Positions 2 to 8,032 of a DNA stretch of 8,032 nucleotides are shown piece by piece (position 1 is the first letter of the stretch; each line of letters opens with the position of its first letter). Origin of the DNA: Kouleothrix aurantiaca (GTDB taxonomy: Bacteria > Chloroflexota > Chloroflexia > Chloroflexales > Roseiflexaceae). The DNA is taken from assembly GCA_001399705.1 (NCBI GenBank), contig LJCR01000081.1, positions 1-8,032 on the forward strand, in the 5' to 3' direction. Made by a program: the position numbers and the translations under genes. A model generated the notes under the pieces. It did not search any database, had not been told where the DNA came from, and saw nothing but the letters and a program-made list of their open reading frames with translations.

Positions 2-745
2 CCGCTGGCTATCGACGTGCGGACCGGCAAGTTGGTCGGGGGCCACGGTCGTATCGAAGTGCTGCAGGGGATGAAGAAGGCCGGCGGCAAGCCACCGCAG
101 CGCGTGGATGCGCGCGGCAAGGAGTGGTTTGTGCCGGTGGTGCGCGGCCTCTCGTTTACAACCGACCATGAGGCCGATGCCTACCTGATCGCCGCCAACC
201 AGCTCACGACCGCCGGCGGCTGGGATGATGGGATGCTGGGCTCGATGCTCGCCGAGCTGCGCGGGGCCAACGTCTCCTTCGAGGGCCTGGGCTTCGACCA
301 GGGCAAGATCAACAGCATGCTGGCGTCGTTCGCGCCGGCGGCCGAGCAGCTCGCGAATATGCCCACACCGCCCGCGCCGAGCTTCAGCCCGCCTCCGCCA
401 CCAGCGCCTCTTCCAGCCGCAGTGGCCAGCGAGCCGCCGCCCGCGATTACTCCGGCCGCCGTCGTGACGAGCGATGGCCAGTTCTCACCACCGCCGACCA
501 GCATGCCCGTCCTGGCCGAAGGGCAGACGCCGGCGGATGTGGGGGTGCTCGACCCGACGACGCGGATCGAGAGCGAGCACGCGCCCAAGGTGATGCGAAC
601 GATTTTGATTGGCCGCCACCATATTCCGTGCTCGGCAGAGGAGAGCGCAAAACTGGATGACCTGATTACGAAATGGATGGATCGCACAGGGAGCCTCTAC
701 GGTTTCTTTACCGCCCACCTGTACGAGCCAGCCGAAGAACTGTAA
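2..745 (+). CDS. ParB/Srx-fold domain protein with proline-rich linker (5' end missing)
   Basis: The reading frame is open from base 2, so the gene begins outside the window; the GTG at 17 lies inside the ParB fold and is unlikely to be the true start. The visible N-terminal part carries a G-G-H-G-R motif (codons from base 38), matching the N-G-H-L-R and D-G-H-M-R boxes of the two ParB-like genes at the right end of the window. A helical stretch follows with A-A-N-Q-L and G-G-W-D-D, typical of phage ParB-like proteins. Next comes a proline/alanine-rich linker (about bases 360-520), then a C-terminal module of about 50 residues beginning R-T-I-L-I-G. ParB/Srx folds bind nucleotides and may act as CTPases, kinases or nucleases; which applies here cannot be told. 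The stop TAA overlaps the ribosome binding site of the next gene, suggesting translational coupling. Confidence 0.8.
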   Translation, partial: PLAIDVRTGKLVGGHGRIEVLQGMKKAGGKPPQRVDARGKEWFVPVVRGLSFTTDHEADAYLIAANQLTTAGGWDDGMLGSMLAELRGANVSFEGLGFDQGKINSMLASFAPAAEQLANMPTPPAPSFSPPPPPAPLPAAVASEPPPAITPAAVVTSDGQFSPPPTSMPVLAEGQTPADVGVLDPTTRIESEHAPKVMRTILIGRHHIPCSAEESAKLDDLITKWMDRTGSLYGFFTAHLYEPAEEL

Positions 746-760: not shown

Positions 761-2164
761 GTGTTCTACATGAACTACCCGATCGCCGCGCTCAAACCCG
801 CGCCGTACAACCCGCGCAAGATTGATGAGCAGGCATTCCTGGCGCTCCAGCAATCCATCAAGACCCTTGGAATGGTCAAGCCCATCATCGCCGGCGAAGA
901 CGGCACGATCGTTGCGGGCCACCAGCGCTCGCGGGCCGCGATGGCGGTAGGCGTGGAGCACGCGCCCGTGTTCGTCGTCAAGGAGCTGAACAAGCTCGAC
1001 GAAATCCGTTTCAACCAGCTGCACAACGGCACCGACCTGGACACCGGCGACGAGAGCGTGCGCGTTCCGCCGTGTGACCAGGTCGGCTACTATGACGTGC
1101 CCCACCAGAGCATCAAGGGCAACCTGAAGGCGAAGGGCAAGGGCCTGCGCGCGGCGATTATCGAGCTGATCACCAGCTATGGCCCCTGGGGCGGCGTGGT
1201 CGCCGCGGCCGACGGCGAGGTGCTCAGCGGCGCGCAGTACGCGCTGGCCTGCAAGCTCGCCCATCTGCCGTGCCGCACCTTCTACGTGCCGCAGAGCGAG
1301 GCGGCCCGGGTGCGAGCAATCTTCAACAAACAGTACGGTCAGTTCTACTACGAGAATTTGCCCAAGCTGACCTACATGCAGACCTTCGCGCAGCTGCACC
1401 GCTTGCGGGCCGGCAAGTCGGAGCGCACGCCGAAGGGCATCGTCAGCCCGAACTACGAGAACGTCTACATCCCCAACTTCCGACCAGGTGAGCGTATTCT
1501 GGACTTCGGCTGCGGCCAGGGCGACTATGTGAGGTTGCTGCAGGGCCGCGGCATCCGGATCTGGGGCATGGAGTTCTTCTATCGCGCCGCGCAGCAGATC
1601 AACACCCAGGCCGTGCATATGATGGCCGACAGCCTGTTTCAGACCCTGCGCACCCACGGCCGCTTCGACACCGTGATCTGCGAGTATGTGCTGAACAGCA
1701 CGGATCGCCTGGCCGCCGAGCAGGCCGTGATGACCTGTCTGAACGCCTTCTGCAAGCCCGGCGGGCGGATCTACGCCTCGGGCCGCCAGTACCTGGATAA
1801 CACCGACTACGTGGATCACACCAGGCAGCAGGCCAACACGCAGTATCAGATCAGCTTCCTCGACCCGAACGGCTACACCGGCAAGATTCGCGGCGGCCGC
1901 TGGTACTACCAGAAGTATCACACCGACGCGATGGCGATGGATTTGGCGCAGACCTACATCGGAAAAGATGCACGGTTGACGAAGCCGGCCGGCGACCACC
2001 TGTTCATGATCAGCGGCGTGAAGCAGCACGAGCTGGCCGAGGCCGACGTGATTCGCGCGCTGGAGTATGAGTTCAATCTGACCTGGCCGAACGATATGAC
2101 CGTCAACCGGCACCGCGAGGCGACCCAAGCCTGGCGCGCCGCGGTCGCGCTTGAGCGCGCATAG
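761..2164 (+). CDS. ParB-like domain / class I SAM methyltransferase fusion, tandem copy 1
   Basis: Residues 6-100 form a ParB-like domain: box P-Y-N-P-R (15-19), G-M-V-K-P (37-41) and nucleotide-loop motif A-G-H-Q-R (52-56). A conserved F-N-Q-L-H-N-G-T-D-L-D-T-G-D stretch (84-97) links to a middle domain (about 108-215) containing S-I-K-G-N (117-121) and an S-G-A-Q-Y-A-L helix (156-162). The class I methyltransferase domain (about 235-345) has motif I D-F-G-C-G-Q-G (248-254), the acidic motif II residue E271, motif IV-like F-D-T-V-I-C-E-Y-V-L-N-S-T-D (302-315) and K-P-G-G-R (332-336). The tail (about 375-467) includes W-Y-Y-Q-K-Y-H-T (381-388). It lacks the D/N/S-P-P-Y/F/W and P-C catalytic motifs of standard DNA base methyltransferases, so the substrate is unknown. 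It is the first of three tandem paralogs, and its start is GTG. Confidence 0.88.
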   Translation: MFYMNYPIAALKPAPYNPRKIDEQAFLALQQSIKTLGMVKPIIAGEDGTIVAGHQRSRAAMAVGVEHAPVFVVKELNKLDEIRFNQLHNGTDLDTGDESVRVPPCDQVGYYDVPHQSIKGNLKAKGKGLRAAIIELITSYGPWGGVVAAADGEVLSGAQYALACKLAHLPCRTFYVPQSEAARVRAIFNKQYGQFYYENLPKLTYMQTFAQLHRLRAGKSERTPKGIVSPNYENVYIPNFRPGERILDFGCGQGDYVRLLQGRGIRIWGMEFFYRAAQQINTQAVHMMADSLFQTLRTHGRFDTVICEYVLNSTDRLAAEQAVMTCLNAFCKPGGRIYASGRQYLDNTDYVDHTRQQANTQYQISFLDPNGYTGKIRGGRWYYQKYHTDAMAMDLAQTYIGKDARLTKPAGDHLFMISGVKQHELAEADVIRALEYEFNLTWPNDMTVNRHREATQAWRAAVALERA

Positions 2165-2172
2165 GAGCCACA

Positions 2173-3564
2173 GTGTTCCATCCGAGCTATCCACTCAGCG
2201 GCCTGACGCCGGCGCCCTATAACCCGCGCTTCCTCGACGACACGGCATTCGTGGCGCTCCAGCGCTCGATCCGGACGCTCGGCATGATCAAGCCAGTGAT
2301 TGCGACTAGCGACGGCCGCATTCTGGCGGGCCACCAGCGGCAGCGCGCCGCGATGGCGATCGGCCTCGAGTACACGCCGGTCTACGTCGTGAACGGCATC
2401 GATCCGGTCTCTGAAATGCGCTTCAACCAGCTGCACAACGGCACCGACCTGGACACCGGCGACGAGCATGTGACGGTGCCGGCCAGCACTGGCCTGGGCT
2501 ACTATGACGTGCCGGCAGTGAGCATTCGCGGGACGCGCCGCGCCAAGGGCGGCACACTCCGCGTGGCGATCGCCGAGCTGCTGACCAAGTTCGGCCCCTG
2601 GGGCGGGATCGTGGCCAGCCAGAGCGGGGAGTGTCTGAGCGGGGCGCAGTACGCCCTGACCTGCAAGCAGCTGGGCATACCCTGCCGCACCTATTACGTG
2701 CCCGATGAGCTGGCCAGCCTGGTCAAGGGCATGTTTCGCCGGGCCTACGGCGAGTTCGACTACTCCAAGCTCCCCAAGACCACGTATATGCAAACCTTCG
2801 CGCAAATGTACCGCGTGCGCCAGGATGAGGAGGGCCGGCCGATTGGGGTTGGCCAGCCATTTTATGAGCACGTTTACATCCCGAACTTCAAGCCAGGCGA
2901 GCGCATTTTGGACTTCGGGTGTGGCCAGGGCGACTACGTGCGGATCTTGCAGACCAAGGGCTACCGGATTTGGGGCATGGAGTTCTTCTATCGCGCCGGC
3001 CAGGGGCTGAACACGCCGGCGATCCACCAGATGGCCGACAGCCTATTCGAGACGCTGCGCACCCACGGCCGCTTCGATGTGGTGCTGTGTGAGTTCGTGC
3101 TGAACTCGACCGACCGCAACGAGGCCGAAGTTGCGGTGATGACCTGCCTGAACGCGCTGTGCAAGCCGGGCGGGCGGATCTACGCCTCGGGCCGCACGCG
3201 GTCGGCCACCGAGCGCGAGATCACCAACACGGCCGATACGCAGGGCACGCTGAGCTTCCTGGATAAGGACGGCTACAGCGCGATCGCGCAGAAAGGCCGC
3301 TGGCTCTACCAGAAGTACCATACGCCGGCGCAGGCAACCACGCTGGCGAAGACCTATATCGGCCCGAACGCAGACTACGGCATCCTGAGCGGAATGGATA
3401 CCGTGTTCTTGATTCAGGGCACGAAAGAGGTCGAGCTGCCGCAAGCCCAGGTGGAGGCGGCGCTGACGTTCGAGTTTAACCTTCCGTGGCCTGATGGCCA
3501 CACCGTCAATCGGCACCGTGAGGCGGTCGACGCCTGGCGCGCAGCCATAGCCCTGGAGCGATAA
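2173..3564 (+). CDS. ParB-like domain / class I SAM methyltransferase fusion, tandem copy 2
   Basis: This is a full-length paralog of the preceding gene with the same domain order. It has P-Y-N-P-R (15-19), A-G-H-Q-R (52-56), a middle domain, methyltransferase motif I D-F-G-C-G-Q-G (247-253), motif IV-like F-D-V-V-L-C-E-F-V-L-N-S-T-D and the tail W-L-Y-Q-K-Y-H-T. The GTG start is preceded by AGGAG (2163-2167) inside the stop codon region of copy 1, so the two are probably translationally coupled across an 8-base gap. One difference stands out: the middle-domain lysine of copies 1 and 3 (I-K-G-N) is arginine here (I-R-G-T, residue 119). By eye it is nearer to copy 3 than to copy 1 in several blocks (M-Y-R, T-C-K, C-E-F-V-L-N). 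The substrate is unknown; a role in nucleic-acid or nucleotide modification is inference from the ParB fusion. Confidence 0.88.
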   Translation: MFHPSYPLSGLTPAPYNPRFLDDTAFVALQRSIRTLGMIKPVIATSDGRILAGHQRQRAAMAIGLEYTPVYVVNGIDPVSEMRFNQLHNGTDLDTGDEHVTVPASTGLGYYDVPAVSIRGTRRAKGGTLRVAIAELLTKFGPWGGIVASQSGECLSGAQYALTCKQLGIPCRTYYVPDELASLVKGMFRRAYGEFDYSKLPKTTYMQTFAQMYRVRQDEEGRPIGVGQPFYEHVYIPNFKPGERILDFGCGQGDYVRILQTKGYRIWGMEFFYRAGQGLNTPAIHQMADSLFETLRTHGRFDVVLCEFVLNSTDRNEAEVAVMTCLNALCKPGGRIYASGRTRSATEREITNTADTQGTLSFLDKDGYSAIAQKGRWLYQKYHTPAQATTLAKTYIGPNADYGILSGMDTVFLIQGTKEVELPQAQVEAALTFEFNLPWPDGHTVNRHREAVDAWRAAIALER

Positions 3565-3568
3565 TTCC

Positions 3569-4960
3569 ATGCCTTTTTACCAGAACTACCCTATCGACCA
3601 GCTCGCGCCGGCGCCCTACAACCCGCGCCACCTGGACGACAATGCGTTCAAGGCTCTGCAGCGCTCGATCCGCGTGCTGGGGATGATCAAGCCGGTGATC
3701 GCGGCCGACAACGGCACGATCGTGGCGGGCCACCAGCGCTCGCGCGCGGCGCGTGAAGTCGGCCTGACCCACGTTCCGGTGTTCGTCGTCAACGAGCTGA
3801 ACATCATGAACGAAATGAAGTTCAACCAGCTGCACAACGGTACCGACCTCGACACTGGCGACGAGCATGTGAGCGTGCCACCGTGCGAGGGGACGGGCTA
3901 CTACGACGTGCCGGCCGCCGCAATCAAGGGCAACCAGCGCGCGCAGGGAGCCTCGGTGCGGGTGGCGATCGCCGAGCTGATGACCCTGTACGGCGAGTGG
4001 GGCGGGATCGTGGCCACGCAGAGCGGGAAGTGCCTCTCAGGCGCCCAATACGCCCTGACCTGCAAGATGCTCTCGAAGCCCTGCCGCGTCTACTACGTGC
4101 CCGACGACAGCGAAATGATGGTCAAGGGCATCTTCCAGCGCGAGTATGGCGTGTTCGACTACGGCAAGCTGCCGAAGACGACCTATTACCAGACGTTCGC
4201 GCAGATGTATCGCAAGCGCGAGGATGAGGCCGGGCGGCCGCGCGGCGTGTCCGCGCCGTTCTATGAGAAGGTCTACATCCCCAACTTCCGCGAGGGCGAG
4301 CGCATTTTGGACTTTGGCTGCGGCCAGGCCGACTACGTGCGGCTGCTCCAGAAGAAGGGCGTCCGGATCTGGGGCATGGAGTTCTATTTCCGCGCCAAGC
4401 AGACCATCAACACGGTGGCCGTGCATCAGATGGCCGATAGCCTGTTCGCCAGCCTGGAGGGCTATGGCCGCTTCGACACGGTGCTGTGCGAGTTCGTGCT
4501 GAACTCGACCGACAGCCTGGAGGCCGAAGCCGCCGTGATGACCTGTCTGAATGCCCTGTGCAAGCCGGGCGGGCGGATCTATGCGAGCGGCCGCACCACC
4601 AAGAGCATCGACGACGAGATGAAGGCCACCAGCAAGAACCAGTACGCGCTGGCGTTCCTGGACAAGAACGGCTACTCGGCGCGGGCGGTGCGCGGCAACT
4701 GGCTCTACCAGAAATATCACACGGTCGCGCAGGCCACCGATCTCGCCAAGAAGTACATCGGCGCCGATGCGCAGTACGTCGAGCTCGCCGGCGCGCCCAA
4801 CACCTTTTTGATCACCGGCACCAAGCAGCACGAGCTGCCCGACGATGCGGTACGGGCCGCACTCATGTTCGAGTTCAATCTAATGTGGCCCGACGGCCAG
4901 CAGGTGAACAAGCATCGGGAGGCGATCGCTGCCTGGGAGGCCGCGCGCGCCAGGGACTAG
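3569..4960 (+). CDS. ParB-like domain / class I SAM methyltransferase fusion, tandem copy 3
   Basis: This is the third paralog, with an ATG start and GGAG (3555-3558) ten bases upstream inside the 3' end of copy 2; the gap to copy 2 is 4 bases. The ParB-like box reads P-Y-N-P-R and A-G-H-Q-R as in the others, the middle domain has I-K-G-N, and the tail has W-L-Y-Q-K-Y-H-T. Methyltransferase motif I is D-F-G-C-G-Q-A (248-254): the third glycine of G-x-G-x-G is alanine. Many class I methyltransferases tolerate a small residue there, so activity is not excluded. The frame is intact and the key motifs are kept, so the three copies look like working, diverged genes and not decaying duplicates. An intrinsic terminator starts about 30 bases after its stop, making it the last gene of this transcription unit. 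Its function is as uncertain as that of copies 1 and 2. Confidence 0.88.
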   Translation: MPFYQNYPIDQLAPAPYNPRHLDDNAFKALQRSIRVLGMIKPVIAADNGTIVAGHQRSRAAREVGLTHVPVFVVNELNIMNEMKFNQLHNGTDLDTGDEHVSVPPCEGTGYYDVPAAAIKGNQRAQGASVRVAIAELMTLYGEWGGIVATQSGKCLSGAQYALTCKMLSKPCRVYYVPDDSEMMVKGIFQREYGVFDYGKLPKTTYYQTFAQMYRKREDEAGRPRGVSAPFYEKVYIPNFREGERILDFGCGQADYVRLLQKKGVRIWGMEFYFRAKQTINTVAVHQMADSLFASLEGYGRFDTVLCEFVLNSTDSLEAEAAVMTCLNALCKPGGRIYASGRTTKSIDDEMKATSKNQYALAFLDKNGYSARAVRGNWLYQKYHTVAQATDLAKKYIGADAQYVELAGAPNTFLITGTKQHELPDDAVRAALMFEFNLMWPDGQQVNKHREAIAAWEAARARD

Positions 4961-5038: not shown

Positions 5039-5044
5039 ATGCGA

Positions 5045-5815
5045 ATGACCAAAGACATCCACGCAAATCAACCCCGCGACTGGCACGGCCGGTACGCGGG
5101 ATCTGCGAATCCAGGGCGCGAAAGTGGGCCGCCCAGGGACGCGGAGGAGATCCACAGCGTCGGCGGCGTGCGGCTGCTGCTGACGGGCGGCCGCACGCCC
5201 ACCTACCAGATCTGGAAGGGCGATGAGCTGATGCACGAGCAGCCCGCGACGCGCGCCTGGCGGCAGGAGCGGCGCGAGCTGAGCGACAAGGCGGCGACGA
5301 TCGCCGGCGTCGAGCCCTCTAAGCCCAAGGTCGAGGGCCGCGAGACCTTCAATCAGAACGGCGTGCGCGTGGTGGTGACACCGGGGAATGAGCCGAAGTT
5401 TCAGGTCTACAAGGGCGACACGCTCATTCACGAGCAGCCGGCGACGCGAGCCTGGAAGAGCGAGCAGACGGCAGTTCTGTCTATCGCCGAGCAGGCCGCC
5501 GGCATCGTGCGGCCGCCGACGGCAACCGCGCAGATCAACGGGCATTTGCGCCAGGGCTCGATCCGCGGCGGCCCGGTCAGCGTGCGCGGGCAGCTGGATT
5601 ACGTGGCGGTGTACGTCGAGAACAAGCTGTCGGAGAACCCGGCGCTCAATCCGCGCGACGTGCAGGCCAAGGGCCGCGCGCTGGCTGAGAAGTGGGCCGC
5701 GCAAGGCCCGGCGTATTTCCAACGGCAGATGCAGTTTCAGGTCAGCCGCCAATATCAGCGGCACCTCGACGAGGAGGATACTGACCGGAACCGCGAGATT
5801 ACTGAGGAGGGATAG
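5045..5815 (+). CDS. Unrecognised protein with a duplicated ~48-residue module
   Basis: I do not recognise this 256-residue protein. Near the N-terminus it has R-D-W-H-G-R-Y-A-G (11-19), resembling the R-D-x-x-G-R-F/Y pattern seen near the start of many phage head or scaffold-type proteins; this is only suggestive. Two internal repeats follow: residues 41-88 and 106-153, about 24 of 48 positions identical, with the core H-E-Q-P-A-T-R-A-W kept exactly in both. The repeat begins with a V-R-L/V beta-like strand, a K-G-D turn and a helix. The C-terminal third is charged and probably helical. There is no signal peptide or membrane segment. It is the first gene after the terminator and ends one codon before the next start (stop 5813-5815, GTG 5816), so it is coupled to the terminase-like gene. 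A role in phage assembly or DNA packaging is possible but unproven. Confidence 0.75.
   Translation: MTKDIHANQPRDWHGRYAGSANPGRESGPPRDAEEIHSVGGVRLLLTGGRTPTYQIWKGDELMHEQPATRAWRQERRELSDKAATIAGVEPSKPKVEGRETFNQNGVRVVVTPGNEPKFQVYKGDTLIHEQPATRAWKSEQTAVLSIAEQAAGIVRPPTATAQINGHLRQGSIRGGPVSVRGQLDYVAVYVENKLSENPALNPRDVQAKGRALAEKWAAQGPAYFQRQMQFQVSRQYQRHLDEEDTDRNREITEEG
5165..5503 (+). repeat. Internal protein-coding duplication (two copies, 195-base offset)
   Basis: Bases 5165-5308 and 5360-5503 encode two versions of the same ~48-residue unit separated by a 17-residue spacer. The shared core includes K-G-D, then H-E-Q-P-A-T-R-A-W. About half the residues are identical, so the duplication is old but both units are kept. 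Confidence 0.8.
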
Positions 5816-6310
5816 GTGGCGAAGCGCGCGCAAGAAACACCGAAGGCCCTGGAGGCTTTTGAGCAATATTGGGCGCTTGGGCCATCGCGCAGCCTGCGAG
5901 CGCTGGCTGACGCGACCGGCATCCAGCTCAGCCAGCTGGGCGACTGGTCGAGCAAGTTTGACTGGCAGTATCGCGTGATGCAGCGGCAGCGCGAGGAAGT
6001 GGCGGCGGCGCGAGTCGCTGCAAAGAAAGAGGCCGCCGCGCTCGGCAGGAGGCGCCTCCGGAACGCGCAGTTACTCCAGGAGGCGGCGCTGACCATATTC
6101 GCCAAGGCCAATATCGCGGAGATGGAAGAAGACGCCCGCGAGTACCTGGACACGGCGCTCAAGATGATGACTGAAGGCATGCGCGCTGAGCGTCTCGAGC
6201 TGGGCGAGGCAACCGAAACAATCTCACTGGCACCGCCGAAGCCCATCAATGCTATGTCGGATGAGGAGCTGCGCGACTACATCGAGCTGCTCGAACAAGA
6301 CGCGGCATAG
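5816..6310 (+). CDS. Probable phage terminase small-subunit-like protein
   Basis: This 164-residue protein starts at GTG directly after the upstream stop, with GAGGAGGG (5804-5811) four bases before it. Residues 25-54 have the look of a small-terminase helix-turn-helix: R-S-L-R-A-L-A, then T-G-I, then D-W-S-S-K-F-D-W-Q-Y-R, the pattern used by DNA-recognition domains that begin phage packaging. The rest (about 56-150) is a long charged helical region, likely coiled coil, suited to oligomer formation. The C-terminus (S-D-E-E-L-R-D-Y-I-E-L-L) is acidic. Small terminases are often 130-180 residues, so the length fits. No large terminase is visible in the window. It could instead be another helix-turn-helix regulator of phage origin. 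The assignment rests on motif memory, not on a database match. Confidence 0.6.
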   Translation: MAKRAQETPKALEAFEQYWALGPSRSLRALADATGIQLSQLGDWSSKFDWQYRVMQRQREEVAAARVAAKKEAAALGRRRLRNAQLLQEAALTIFAKANIAEMEEDAREYLDTALKMMTEGMRAERLELGEATETISLAPPKPINAMSDEELRDYIELLEQDAA

Positions 6311-6328: not shown

Positions 6329-6919
6329 ATGCACGACACCTTTATCAACGACCACCTCGAGAGGCTGGAGCAGCAGGATCCCGGCAGCCGCGACCACGCG
6401 CAGCGCGTGGCGATCTACGGCATGGCGCTGGGCCAGAAGCTCGGTCTGTCGAGCGAGGATTTACAGCAGCTACGGTGGGGCCTACTGCTGCACGATGTCG
6501 GCAAGCTGGGCGTGCCGGACGGTATCATTCGGTTCCCCGGCAAGCTCACGGCCAAGGAGTGGGCGGCCGTCATGCAGCACCCGGCCTACGGCGACCAGAT
6601 GCTCGCCGAGGTCGAAGGCGCGGGCCTGCTGCGCACGGCGGTGCGGCACCACCACGAGCGCTATGACGGCGACGGCTACCCCGCCGGCCTCAGTCGCAAC
6701 GAGATCCCGCTGTTCGCCCGTATCGCGGCGATTTGTGATTCGTGGGACGTGATGCTCACGGATCGTGCCTATAAGCCGGCCATGACAGTCGCCGAAGCCG
6801 TAGCGGAGCTGCGGCGCTGTAGTGGCACGCAGTTCGACCCCTCTCTGGTCGACCTGTTCCTGTCGGTGTCCCACCGCATGGCGGACATCCCTTCCTACGT
6901 CGAGCACTACATCAGTTAA
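6329..6919 (+). CDS. Free-standing HD-GYP domain phosphodiesterase
   Basis: This 196-residue protein is nearly all one HD-GYP domain. Visible landmarks are H23 (R-D-H-A-Q-R-V), H55-D56-V-G-K59, the conserved G-V-P-D (61-64) and P-G-K-L-T-A-K-E (70-77), H84-P85, H107-H108-H109-E110, D113-G-D-G-Y-P (113-118), I-P-L-F-A-R-I (126-132), the D137-S-W-D140 metal-site segment followed by T-D-R-A-Y, and a late G-T-Q-F-D-P. HD-GYP enzymes hydrolyse cyclic di-GMP (some also cGAMP) with a two- or three-metal centre; all expected ligands seem present, so it is probably active. There is no receiver, PAS or membrane domain, so nothing in the protein senses a signal. AGAGG (6316-6320) lies eight bases before the ATG. 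Its place between a small-terminase-like and a ParB-like gene is unusual and may indicate manipulation of host cyclic-nucleotide signalling. Confidence 0.9.
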   Translation: MHDTFINDHLERLEQQDPGSRDHAQRVAIYGMALGQKLGLSSEDLQQLRWGLLLHDVGKLGVPDGIIRFPGKLTAKEWAAVMQHPAYGDQMLAEVEGAGLLRTAVRHHHERYDGDGYPAGLSRNEIPLFARIAAICDSWDVMLTDRAYKPAMTVAEAVAELRRCSGTQFDPSLVDLFLSVSHRMADIPSYVEHYIS

Positions 6920-6933
6920 AGGAGCCTAGTTCA

Positions 6934-7557
6934 ATGCAGCATCCAACCTGGACATCGAAGGTCGTCAAGCACGCCGACGTGGCGCCCGGCGACCTCCTCA
7001 ACCACCCGGACAACGTCACGATCCACACCGCCGAGCAGCAGGAGGACATGGTTCGCATGTTCCGCAAGATCGGCTGGGCGGCCTCGGTGCTCGTGAGCGT
7101 GAAGACTGGCCGCATCATCGACGGGCATATGCGCGTCGCGGCCGCCCTGAACGCCGGCGCTAGTACGGTGCCGGTCGATTACGTGGATCTGACCGAGGCC
7201 GAGGAGCGCAAGGCGCTGCTGTACCTCAAGCGCATGACCACGCTGGCCGGCATCGACCGCGTCAATTTGGCCGACGTGCTGGAGCAGGTCTCCACGCTGG
7301 ACGCCGACATTGCGGCGATGGCCGACGCCTTCGCCCGCTCCAGCGGCCTGCTGAGGGCGCAGAAGCTGATGGCCGACCGAGAGACGCCGCAGTATATGGA
7401 CGTCACGATCGGCGAGTTCACCTTCCAGATCACCTGGCCCGAGTACGTCCACTGGCGGCTCGGCATGCAGGACATCTGCAAGACCAGGAAGAAAACCCTG
7501 TTAGCTGAAATTTATGTCCGTTTGGGACTTCCCAAACCGACCGACGACATCAAGTAG
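6934..7557 (+). CDS. ParB/Srx-fold domain protein with C-terminal beta-helix module
   Basis: This is a 207-residue protein. The ParB-like domain (about 9-100) contains N-H-P-D-N (23-27), G-W (47-48) leading into a beta strand, and I-I-D-G-H-M-R (61-67), the nucleotide-loop box. A helical region follows (about 100-150). The C-terminal ~45 residues (M-D-V-T-I-G-E-F-T-F-Q-I then a helix) resemble the C-terminus of the first gene in the window (R-T-I-L-I-G-R-H-H-I), so the two share architecture, without the proline linker here. AAAGGAG (6918-6924), overlapping the upstream TAA, lies nine bases before the ATG. Such short ParB-like proteins are common near phage terminase genes and are often annotated as ParB nucleases, although nuclease activity is rarely shown. 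It is not a chromosome-partition ParB: no central helix-turn-helix is evident. Confidence 0.82.
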   Translation: MQHPTWTSKVVKHADVAPGDLLNHPDNVTIHTAEQQEDMVRMFRKIGWAASVLVSVKTGRIIDGHMRVAAALNAGASTVPVDYVDLTEAEERKALLYLKRMTTLAGIDRVNLADVLEQVSTLDADIAAMADAFARSSGLLRAQKLMADRETPQYMDVTIGEFTFQITWPEYVHWRLGMQDICKTRKKTLLAEIYVRLGLPKPTDDIK

Positions 7558-7608: not shown

Positions 7609-8032
7609 ATGAACAACCCCTGGCAGAACCGCATCGTGGGCCACGAGGAAGTCGATCCGCTGACGCTGAAGGCTCACCCGAAGAACGTCCGCACGCACGC
7701 GAGCGCGCAGCGCCGCCTGATGGAGTCGGCCCTCGACGAGCTGGGCCACGTCGGCAAGATCGTTGTGAGCCAGCGCACGCGGCGCGTGCTCAACGGCCAC
7801 CTGCGCGTCGAGCTGGCGATCGGCCGCGACGAAGAGACGATCCCGGTCACCTGGATCGACGTGGATGAGCAAGAGGAGCTGGTGGTACTGGCGTTCTTCG
7901 ACCAGATTGGCGATGGCGCGAAGATCGACGCCGCGAAGCTGCAAAGCACGCTCAGCCAGGTCAGCGCCGAGAGCGATGGCCTCAGAACGATGCTCGCCGA
8001 TTGGGGCGCCGGCTTCCAGGTGACGATCGTAC
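7609..8032 (+). CDS. ParB/Srx-fold domain protein (3' end missing)
   Basis: The frame opens at ATG 7609 with GAGG (7598-7601) seven bases upstream and stays open for 141 codons to the window edge. The N-terminal part is a ParB-like domain: A-H-P-K-N-V-R (22-28), a G-K-I-V-V strand (49-53) and V-L-N-G-H-L-R (60-66). Beyond it, V-D-E-Q-E-E-L-V-V-L-A (about 86-96) matches the helix that follows the box in the preceding gene (T-E-A-E-E-R-K-A-L-L). It resembles both the preceding gene and the first gene of the window, but all three differ too much to be recent duplicates. It probably continues into the helical and C-terminal modules seen in those two. Confidence 0.82.
   Translation, partial: MNNPWQNRIVGHEEVDPLTLKAHPKNVRTHASAQRRLMESALDELGHVGKIVVSQRTRRVLNGHLRVELAIGRDEETIPVTWIDVDEQEELVVLAFFDQIGDGAKIDAAKLQSTLSQVSAESDGLRTMLADWGAGFQVTIV

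Follow-up and report, generated by a model that had tools for sequence, protein, structure and literature searches.

Why would a single locus keep three adjacent, diverged copies of one large fusion gene? The contig LJCR01000081.1 of Kouleothrix aurantiaca (GenBank assembly GCA_001399705.1), 8032 bases long and analyzed over its whole length (contig C3634 in our set; "the window" below), encodes three tandem proteins predicted to join ParB-like domains to a methyltransferase. The original prediction, made from the letters alone, held that such copies should differ in target or form a hetero-complex. The source assembly comprises 7.8 Mb in 3843 contigs (completeness 83.5%, contamination 7.5%). 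All genes of the window run in one direction (+ strand), and both end genes are cut by the contig edges. We found all three copies to be intact, long diverged and maintained, and each has orthologs of its own in other genomes. Their separation into orthogroups supports, as far as sequence comparison goes, what a difference in target or a hetero-complex would predict.

Intactness, age and maintenance of the copies

The copies lie head to tail on the + strand with gaps of 8 and 4 bases, as had been claimed, and none of their open reading frames (ORFs) contains an internal stop. Ribosome binding sites overlapping the preceding stop had been predicted as well. These are present before copy 1 (TAAGGAG, 743-749) and copy 2 (TAGGAG, 2162-2167) but not before copy 3, where the nearest GGAG (3555-3558) lies within the end of copy 2 without overlapping its stop. 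Protein identity is 63% between copies 1 and 2, 61% between copies 1 and 3, and 68% between copies 2 and 3; at the DNA level, copy 1 is about 70% identical to the other two. PHROG 5475 matches all copies at nearly full length (E values of 3e-103 to 2e-106), covering residues 1 to 461 of 467 in copy 1, 1 to 459 of 463 in copy 2 and 5 to 457 of 463 in copy 3, and the Pfam families ParB_N and Methyltransf_23 score above the gathering cut-off in each. The claim of three full-length, intact paralogs thus holds.

Trees were built from 72 rows and, once 7 duplicates and 8 rows with long branches had been taken out, from the remaining 57. In both, each window copy falls in a separate, starred clade with orthologs from other genomes (Table 1), the point that the tree check proposed with the original prediction was meant to examine. 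The closest relatives elsewhere are 85 to 92% identical among the matches listed (three protein searches, each scoring about 8,000 candidates, with 120 listed). Copies 2 and 3 are sisters (98/96 in the 72-row tree and 99/96 in the 57-row tree, starred). Copy 1 joins the clade of Chloroflexales locus L080 in the 57-row tree (88/93, not starred), a fork that the 72-row tree leaves open; copy 1 and the L080 clade member both occupy position one, next after the upstream ParB gene. The two copies of L079 share a starred clade but sit in different groups within it, one of which is weakly supported (81/57 and 76/66). The copies of strains ZM16-3 and ZM17-4 form a separate clade (94/90 and 92/87 in the 72- and 57-row trees, not starred, but starred with P0038 added), within which L081_b pairs with L082_a and L081_c with L082_b. 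The most economical account of these groupings would have the window and the Viridilinea phages share an old duplication and each add another, with the ZM lineage multiplying its copies independently. Other duplication histories are compatible with the forks that lack a star.

Selection appears to have maintained the proteins. We defined 51 conserved columns on 41 of 50 family clusters, leaving out the four Chloroflexales loci, L045 and the distant relatives L077, L078, L096 and L097. Copy 1 keeps 50 of these columns and copies 2 and 3 keep 49 each, and all 13 multi-copy proteins examined keep 47 to 50. The ratio of nonsynonymous to synonymous substitution rates (dN/dS) was 0.12 and 0.25 in two cross-genome ortholog pairs, indicating purifying selection, and 0.36 to 0.50 among the window copies, at high dS.

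Multiple copies were seen mainly in the window's order. Scans of viral contigs and species genomes, together with four phage records, turned up full-length members at 69 loci outside the window (partial and domain-only matches not counted), which collapse to 50 clusters at 90% identity, four of them the Chloroflexales loci L079 to L082. A single-sequence scan of the viral contigs gave no match, while an alignment query yielded 67 loci, including several with domain-only matches; among the phage records, 11 had a match, 4 of which covered at least 80% of the query. Apart from these Chloroflexales loci, 45 of 46 clusters, which include viral contigs without an assigned host, are single copy and one (L045) has two copies, although distant second copies would go unnoticed, since no locus spans more than about 25 kb. 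Matches occurred in 3 of 400 genomes of the phylum sample and in 5 of 82 genomes of the order. Within the order, the window's own genome has three copies and three others have three, two and three (the last on two contigs), while the fifth has one broken copy at a contig edge; all Chloroflexales genomes with intact copies (4/4) are therefore multi-copy. The relatives in loci L079 to L082 belong to Chloroflexales bacterium ZM16-3, Oscillochloris sp. ZM17-4 and Candidatus Viridilinea halotolerans. The original prediction had named two signs of a trivial duplication, namely homologs that are almost always single copy and copies that cluster as recent duplicates under relaxed selection. The first is seen apart from the Chloroflexales loci; the second is not seen here.

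Some further cases stand beside these counts. The tandem pair of L045 (1934-4695) comes from a viral contig, is placed well away from the Chloroflexales clades by the 72-row tree and represents a duplication of its own. A broken copy, L089:6103-7586, is split into two separate reading frames at the contig edge of an Oscillochloris assembly. Equal size of the longest source contig suggests that P0012/P0017, P0014/P0028 and P0024/P0025 are metagenome pairs; P0086 and P0141, which are 40% identical, may be another, going only by the same sign (5109 for both).

Two predicted ParB-like folds and a methyltransferase in one chain

The four-part anatomy originally described (ParB-like part, middle domain, methyltransferase, conserved tail) was right, and we refine it to a ParB domain, a second ParB-like domain, a class I S-adenosylmethionine (SAM) methyltransferase, and an insert plus tail (Table 1). 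Domain 1 belongs to the ParB-CTPase fold by its ParB_N scores (38.9, 29.8 and 41.6 bits in copies 1 to 3, against a cut-off of 26.3). Its GHQR motif, which contains the arginine of the GxxR box (box II), is invariant in 91 of 91 proteins. Domain 2 most likely represents another ParB fold that has degenerated: it matches domain 1 in a profile-profile comparison (E = 1.4e-5), and when modeled alone (mean predicted local distance difference test score, pLDDT, of 92.8) its best Protein Data Bank (PDB) matches are ParB and sulfiredoxin, at weak E values. The position of the box II arginine is occupied by Tyr in 53 of 54 relatives and by Phe in one. A resemblance seen by eye between this domain and part of a fold-type II pyridoxal phosphate (PLP) enzyme was given up in view of the profile match to domain 1 and of the model searches, in which chains of ParB, sulfiredoxin and SerK rank first.

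Domain 3 is assigned to the class I SAM methyltransferases by the Methyltransf_23 profile and its Rossmann fold. In copy 2, motif I reads DFGCGQGD and the motif IV position reads CEFVLNSTD. PDB matches liken the core to tRNA (Trm9, METTL6), glycine and small-molecule methyltransferases. Domain 1 shares its fold and GxxR box with the canonical ParB/Noc CTPase clamps. Those proteins, however, have a helix-turn-helix (HTH) domain, whereas Pfam matches of the three copies (E values up to 0.1) include no HTH family, which sets them apart from canonical ParABS, and the methyltransferase stands in its place. PADLOC returned partial matches only: the ParB part matched a type II methyltransferase, and the methyltransferase core matched mad2.

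Genomic context and relation to known systems

The usual, though not universal, context of the family is a packaging module of a standalone ParB gene, the family gene and terminase genes. A phrog_620 ParB was found in 39 of 43 upstream ORFs scanned. This set took in 39 of 41 + strand ORFs that lie directly upstream and reach 100 amino acids (aa) or more, those of L079 and L081 being dropped as spurious by eye, plus four hand-picked ORFs (window, L080, L081 and L082), so the fraction leans upward; among directly upstream ORFs it is at least 35 of 41. In 9 of 50 representatives, some of them at contig ends, there was no directly upstream + strand ORF of this length. Downstream, terminase large subunit and portal families led among long ORFs (phrog_979 in 17 and phrog_38 in 15 of 62 scanned, out of 66), and small terminase families led among shorter ones (phrog_57 in 10 and phrog_309 in 6 of 75, that is, 72 of 85 plus 3 added by hand). 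Bacteroides phage BS-TP3 has the order ParB, family protein, small terminase, large terminase. In Escherichia phage vB_EcoM-613R2, two genes, one of them a ParB, come after ParB and the family protein, and the large terminase follows at a distance of a few genes. Brochothrix phage BtpYZU02 carries its relative amid replication genes, several genes ahead of the terminase, and the genes around the relative in Aeromonas phage HJ05 are unannotated.

The window fits this picture (Table 1). Its first ParB gene, directly upstream of the copies, is 37 to 42% identical to the upstream ParB of L080, L081 and L082 and, judged by this conservation, is a conserved partner. With two further ParB-like genes downstream, each 31 to 34% identical to relatives of the other, a ParB-type domain occurs in 6 of the 9 window genes. 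The small terminase, HD-GYP and following ParB genes recur in L079, L081 and L082. The HD-GYP gene has the same place in L079 and L082 but lies upstream of ParB and the copies in L081, and both L081 and L082 have additional ORFs that separate some of the copies from each other and the upstream ParB from the first copy. The window is therefore one instance of a conserved, partly rearranged Chloroflexales phage module. The assignment of the contig to a phage or prophage is based on the terminase gene and this synteny; a search of the window's own assembly with one terminase family, Pfam PF03354, gave no match.

Two neighbors deserve separate mention. The HD-GYP protein is small, carries HD and HHE..DG.GYP motifs, and is encoded between terminase and ParB genes; phage HD-GYP enzymes are predicted, in the relevant part of PMC7824862, to degrade cyclic nucleotide signals of host defence. 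The protein encoded between the copies and the small terminase gene has no family match in Pfam, PHROGs or NCBIfam, is 25 to 41% identical over parts to its relatives, and has an apparent internal repeat (GVRLLLTGGRTPTYQIWKGDELMHEQPATRAW and GVRVVVTPGNEPKFQVYKGDTLIHEQPATRAW).

Table 1. Features of the window and of the domains of copy 2
Feature	Position	Strand	Remarks
Standalone ParB-like gene	2..745	+	phrog_620, E 1.3e-15; 5' end cut by contig edge
Copy 1, ParB-pseudoParB-methyltransferase, 467 aa	761..2164	+	GTG start; orthogroup with P0010, P0013
Copy 2, 463 aa	2173..3564	+	GTG start; structure-model reference; orthogroup with P0002-P0006
Copy 2 domain 1, ParB/CTPase fold	2173..2451	+	Residues 1-93; intact GHQR box
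Copy 2 domain 2, second degenerate ParB-like fold (most likely)	2473..2742	+	Residues about 101-190; Tyr160 replaces box Arg
Copy 2 domain 3, class I SAM methyltransferase core	2860..3207	+	Residues 230-345; Methyltransf_23, PDB matches
Copy 2 domain 4, insert and tail	3208..3561	+	Residues 346-463; most divergent part among window copies
Copy 3, 463 aa	3569..4960	+	ATG start; orthogroup with P0007-P0009
Protein without functional annotation	5039..5815	+	Weak relatives in L079, L081, L082
Terminase small subunit	5816..6310	+	phrog_6299, E 7.9e-19; 59-63% identity in L079, L081, L082
HD-GYP type phosphodiesterase	6329..6919	+	HD_5, E 5.9e-33; 32-39% identity in L079, L081, L082
Further ParB-like gene	6934..7557	+	phrog_498/phrog_620; 51-53% identity in L079, L081, L082
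Further ParB-like gene	7609..8032	+	phrog_8071; 48-50% identity in L079, L081; 3' end cut by contig edge

The original prediction considered the system undescribed, which does not hold for the family: it corresponds to PHROG 5475, an entry that gives neither function nor copy number, and Kaljevic et al. (PMC12704722), in the part concerned, report fusions of the ParB-CTPase fold with Methyltransf_23, the same two Pfam domains, enriched in phages and prophages. In that article, supplements aside, we saw no mention of a second ParB domain, a packaging operon or multi-copy clusters, and the literature searched (again outside the supplements) gave no account of a tandem ParB or a multi-copy cluster. 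More generally, ParBc domains are described as frequently fused to DNA methyltransferases, with function unknown (PMC12783734, in part). BCE_0392 of a Bacillus cereus prophage likewise joins ParB and a methyltransferase (PMC3459991 and PMC5512222, as far as they describe it). It is an adenine methylase that makes N6-methyladenine, and a role in replication or packaging has been suggested (PMC3459991); the window family is set apart from this description by a second ParB-like fold and by having no amino-methylase motif. The ParB-DNA methyltransferases of phrog_498 have a related ParB domain but match the copies over the ParB part only (about 90 residues). The phrog_620 ParB, the usual upstream partner, also shares a related ParB domain.

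Possible roles of the copies

Tentatively, we read the copies as nucleotide-gated clamps that methylate phage DNA shortly before packaging, each probably with its own target. Domain 1, given its fold and invariant GHQR box, would bind a nucleoside triphosphate (NTP), and the arginine-less domain 2 would be its pseudo-partner within the same chain, allowing the chain to close around DNA. From its position, the standalone ParB encoded directly upstream may help loading. The methyltransferase would then modify DNA, and the fast-diverging insert and tail would set the target. The two or three copies of Chloroflexales phages would most likely have been retained because together they cover several targets, which could lead to evasion of host restriction or mark the DNA for the terminase. 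A role of the tail in target choice is consistent with its identity where methyltransferase cores are 80 to 90% identical: 45% between orthogroups (32 pairs) and 74% within them (59 pairs), although the pairs are not independent.

The divergence of the tail has no simple reading. Four-fold sites of the window copies agree more in the core (94 of 125) than elsewhere (167 of 306; nominal P = 6e-5), and the contrast between core and tail may therefore be due in part to gene conversion of the core. The ZM copies have no better conserved core. Motif IV of amino-methyltransferases, [DNS]PP[YFW], which marks N6-adenine and N4-cytosine enzymes, was found in 0 of 54 proteins, and the catalytic PC motif of C5-cytosine enzymes, sought in the two forms PCQ and PCN, also in 0 of 54. 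Since these motifs are missing, any DNA chemistry is probably a nonstandard one. The DNA modification proposed originally is thus plausible from the ParB fusion and the packaging context, but it is not backed by a standard motif.

It is conceivable, if somewhat unlikely, that a non-DNA substrate is methylated instead (a nucleotide in the ParB pocket, RNA, or a capsid or terminase protein), with the copies serving different substrates. The missing motifs and the resemblance of the core to tRNA, glycine and small-molecule enzymes would fit, as would the inclusion of nucleotide enzymes (SerK, sulfiredoxin) among ParB-type folds, seen both in the fold list of the model searches and in PMC12704722. 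However, the ParB part resembles phage ParB-DNA methyltransferases (phrog_498), and the genes usually lie in a DNA-packaging module. We also think it unlikely that the clamp reading extends to a multi-specificity genome-marking machine, in which pseudo-ParB-partnered clamps bring a nonstandard methyltransferase to phage DNA at packaging, the Chloroflexales paralog sets evolved twice, and every copy has its own site or a place in a mixed clamp.

The tight operon of separate orthogroups in the window, and the closing of canonical ParB folds by pairing (PMC12704722, in the part that treats it), could instead mean that the copies are subunits with different roles in one hetero-oligomeric clamp rather than enzymes with different targets. 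We regard this as rather improbable: the nearly full conserved set in every copy means that none has decayed to a noncatalytic subunit, one copy suffices in nearly all clusters elsewhere, copy number is two or three among Chloroflexales genomes, and ORFs interrupt some of the arrays in L081 and L082. We hold it quite improbable that the proteins mark or nick a pac or cos site for the terminase, with the copies providing dosage, and do not protect the genome. The usual position beside terminase genes agrees with packaging control, and so does the report of nicking by BCE_0392 with the suggestion of a packaging role (PMC3459991 and PMC5512222, in the parts concerned), but dosage leaves the 61 to 68% identity and the separate orthogroups unexplained. 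A tandem duplication that is recent or neutral and has no functional significance, for which the tandem arrangement and an otherwise single-copy family speak, is already disfavored and very improbable given orthologs for each copy (the best of them 85 to 92% identical among the matches listed), separate sets in two Chloroflexales clades plus the L045 pair, conserved residues kept, and dN/dS below 1.

ParB folds are a growing class of nucleotide switches, and many phage fusions of them are uncharacterized. This family offers a testable case, with a ParB with an intact box, a Tyr-substituted ParB-like fold and a methyltransferase in one chain, usually encoded beside a terminase. Because diverged paralogs occur naturally in sets of two or three, the target specificity of one copy can be set against that of the next. 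If DNA is what these proteins modify, the lack of standard motifs would point to a modification of an unfamiliar kind.
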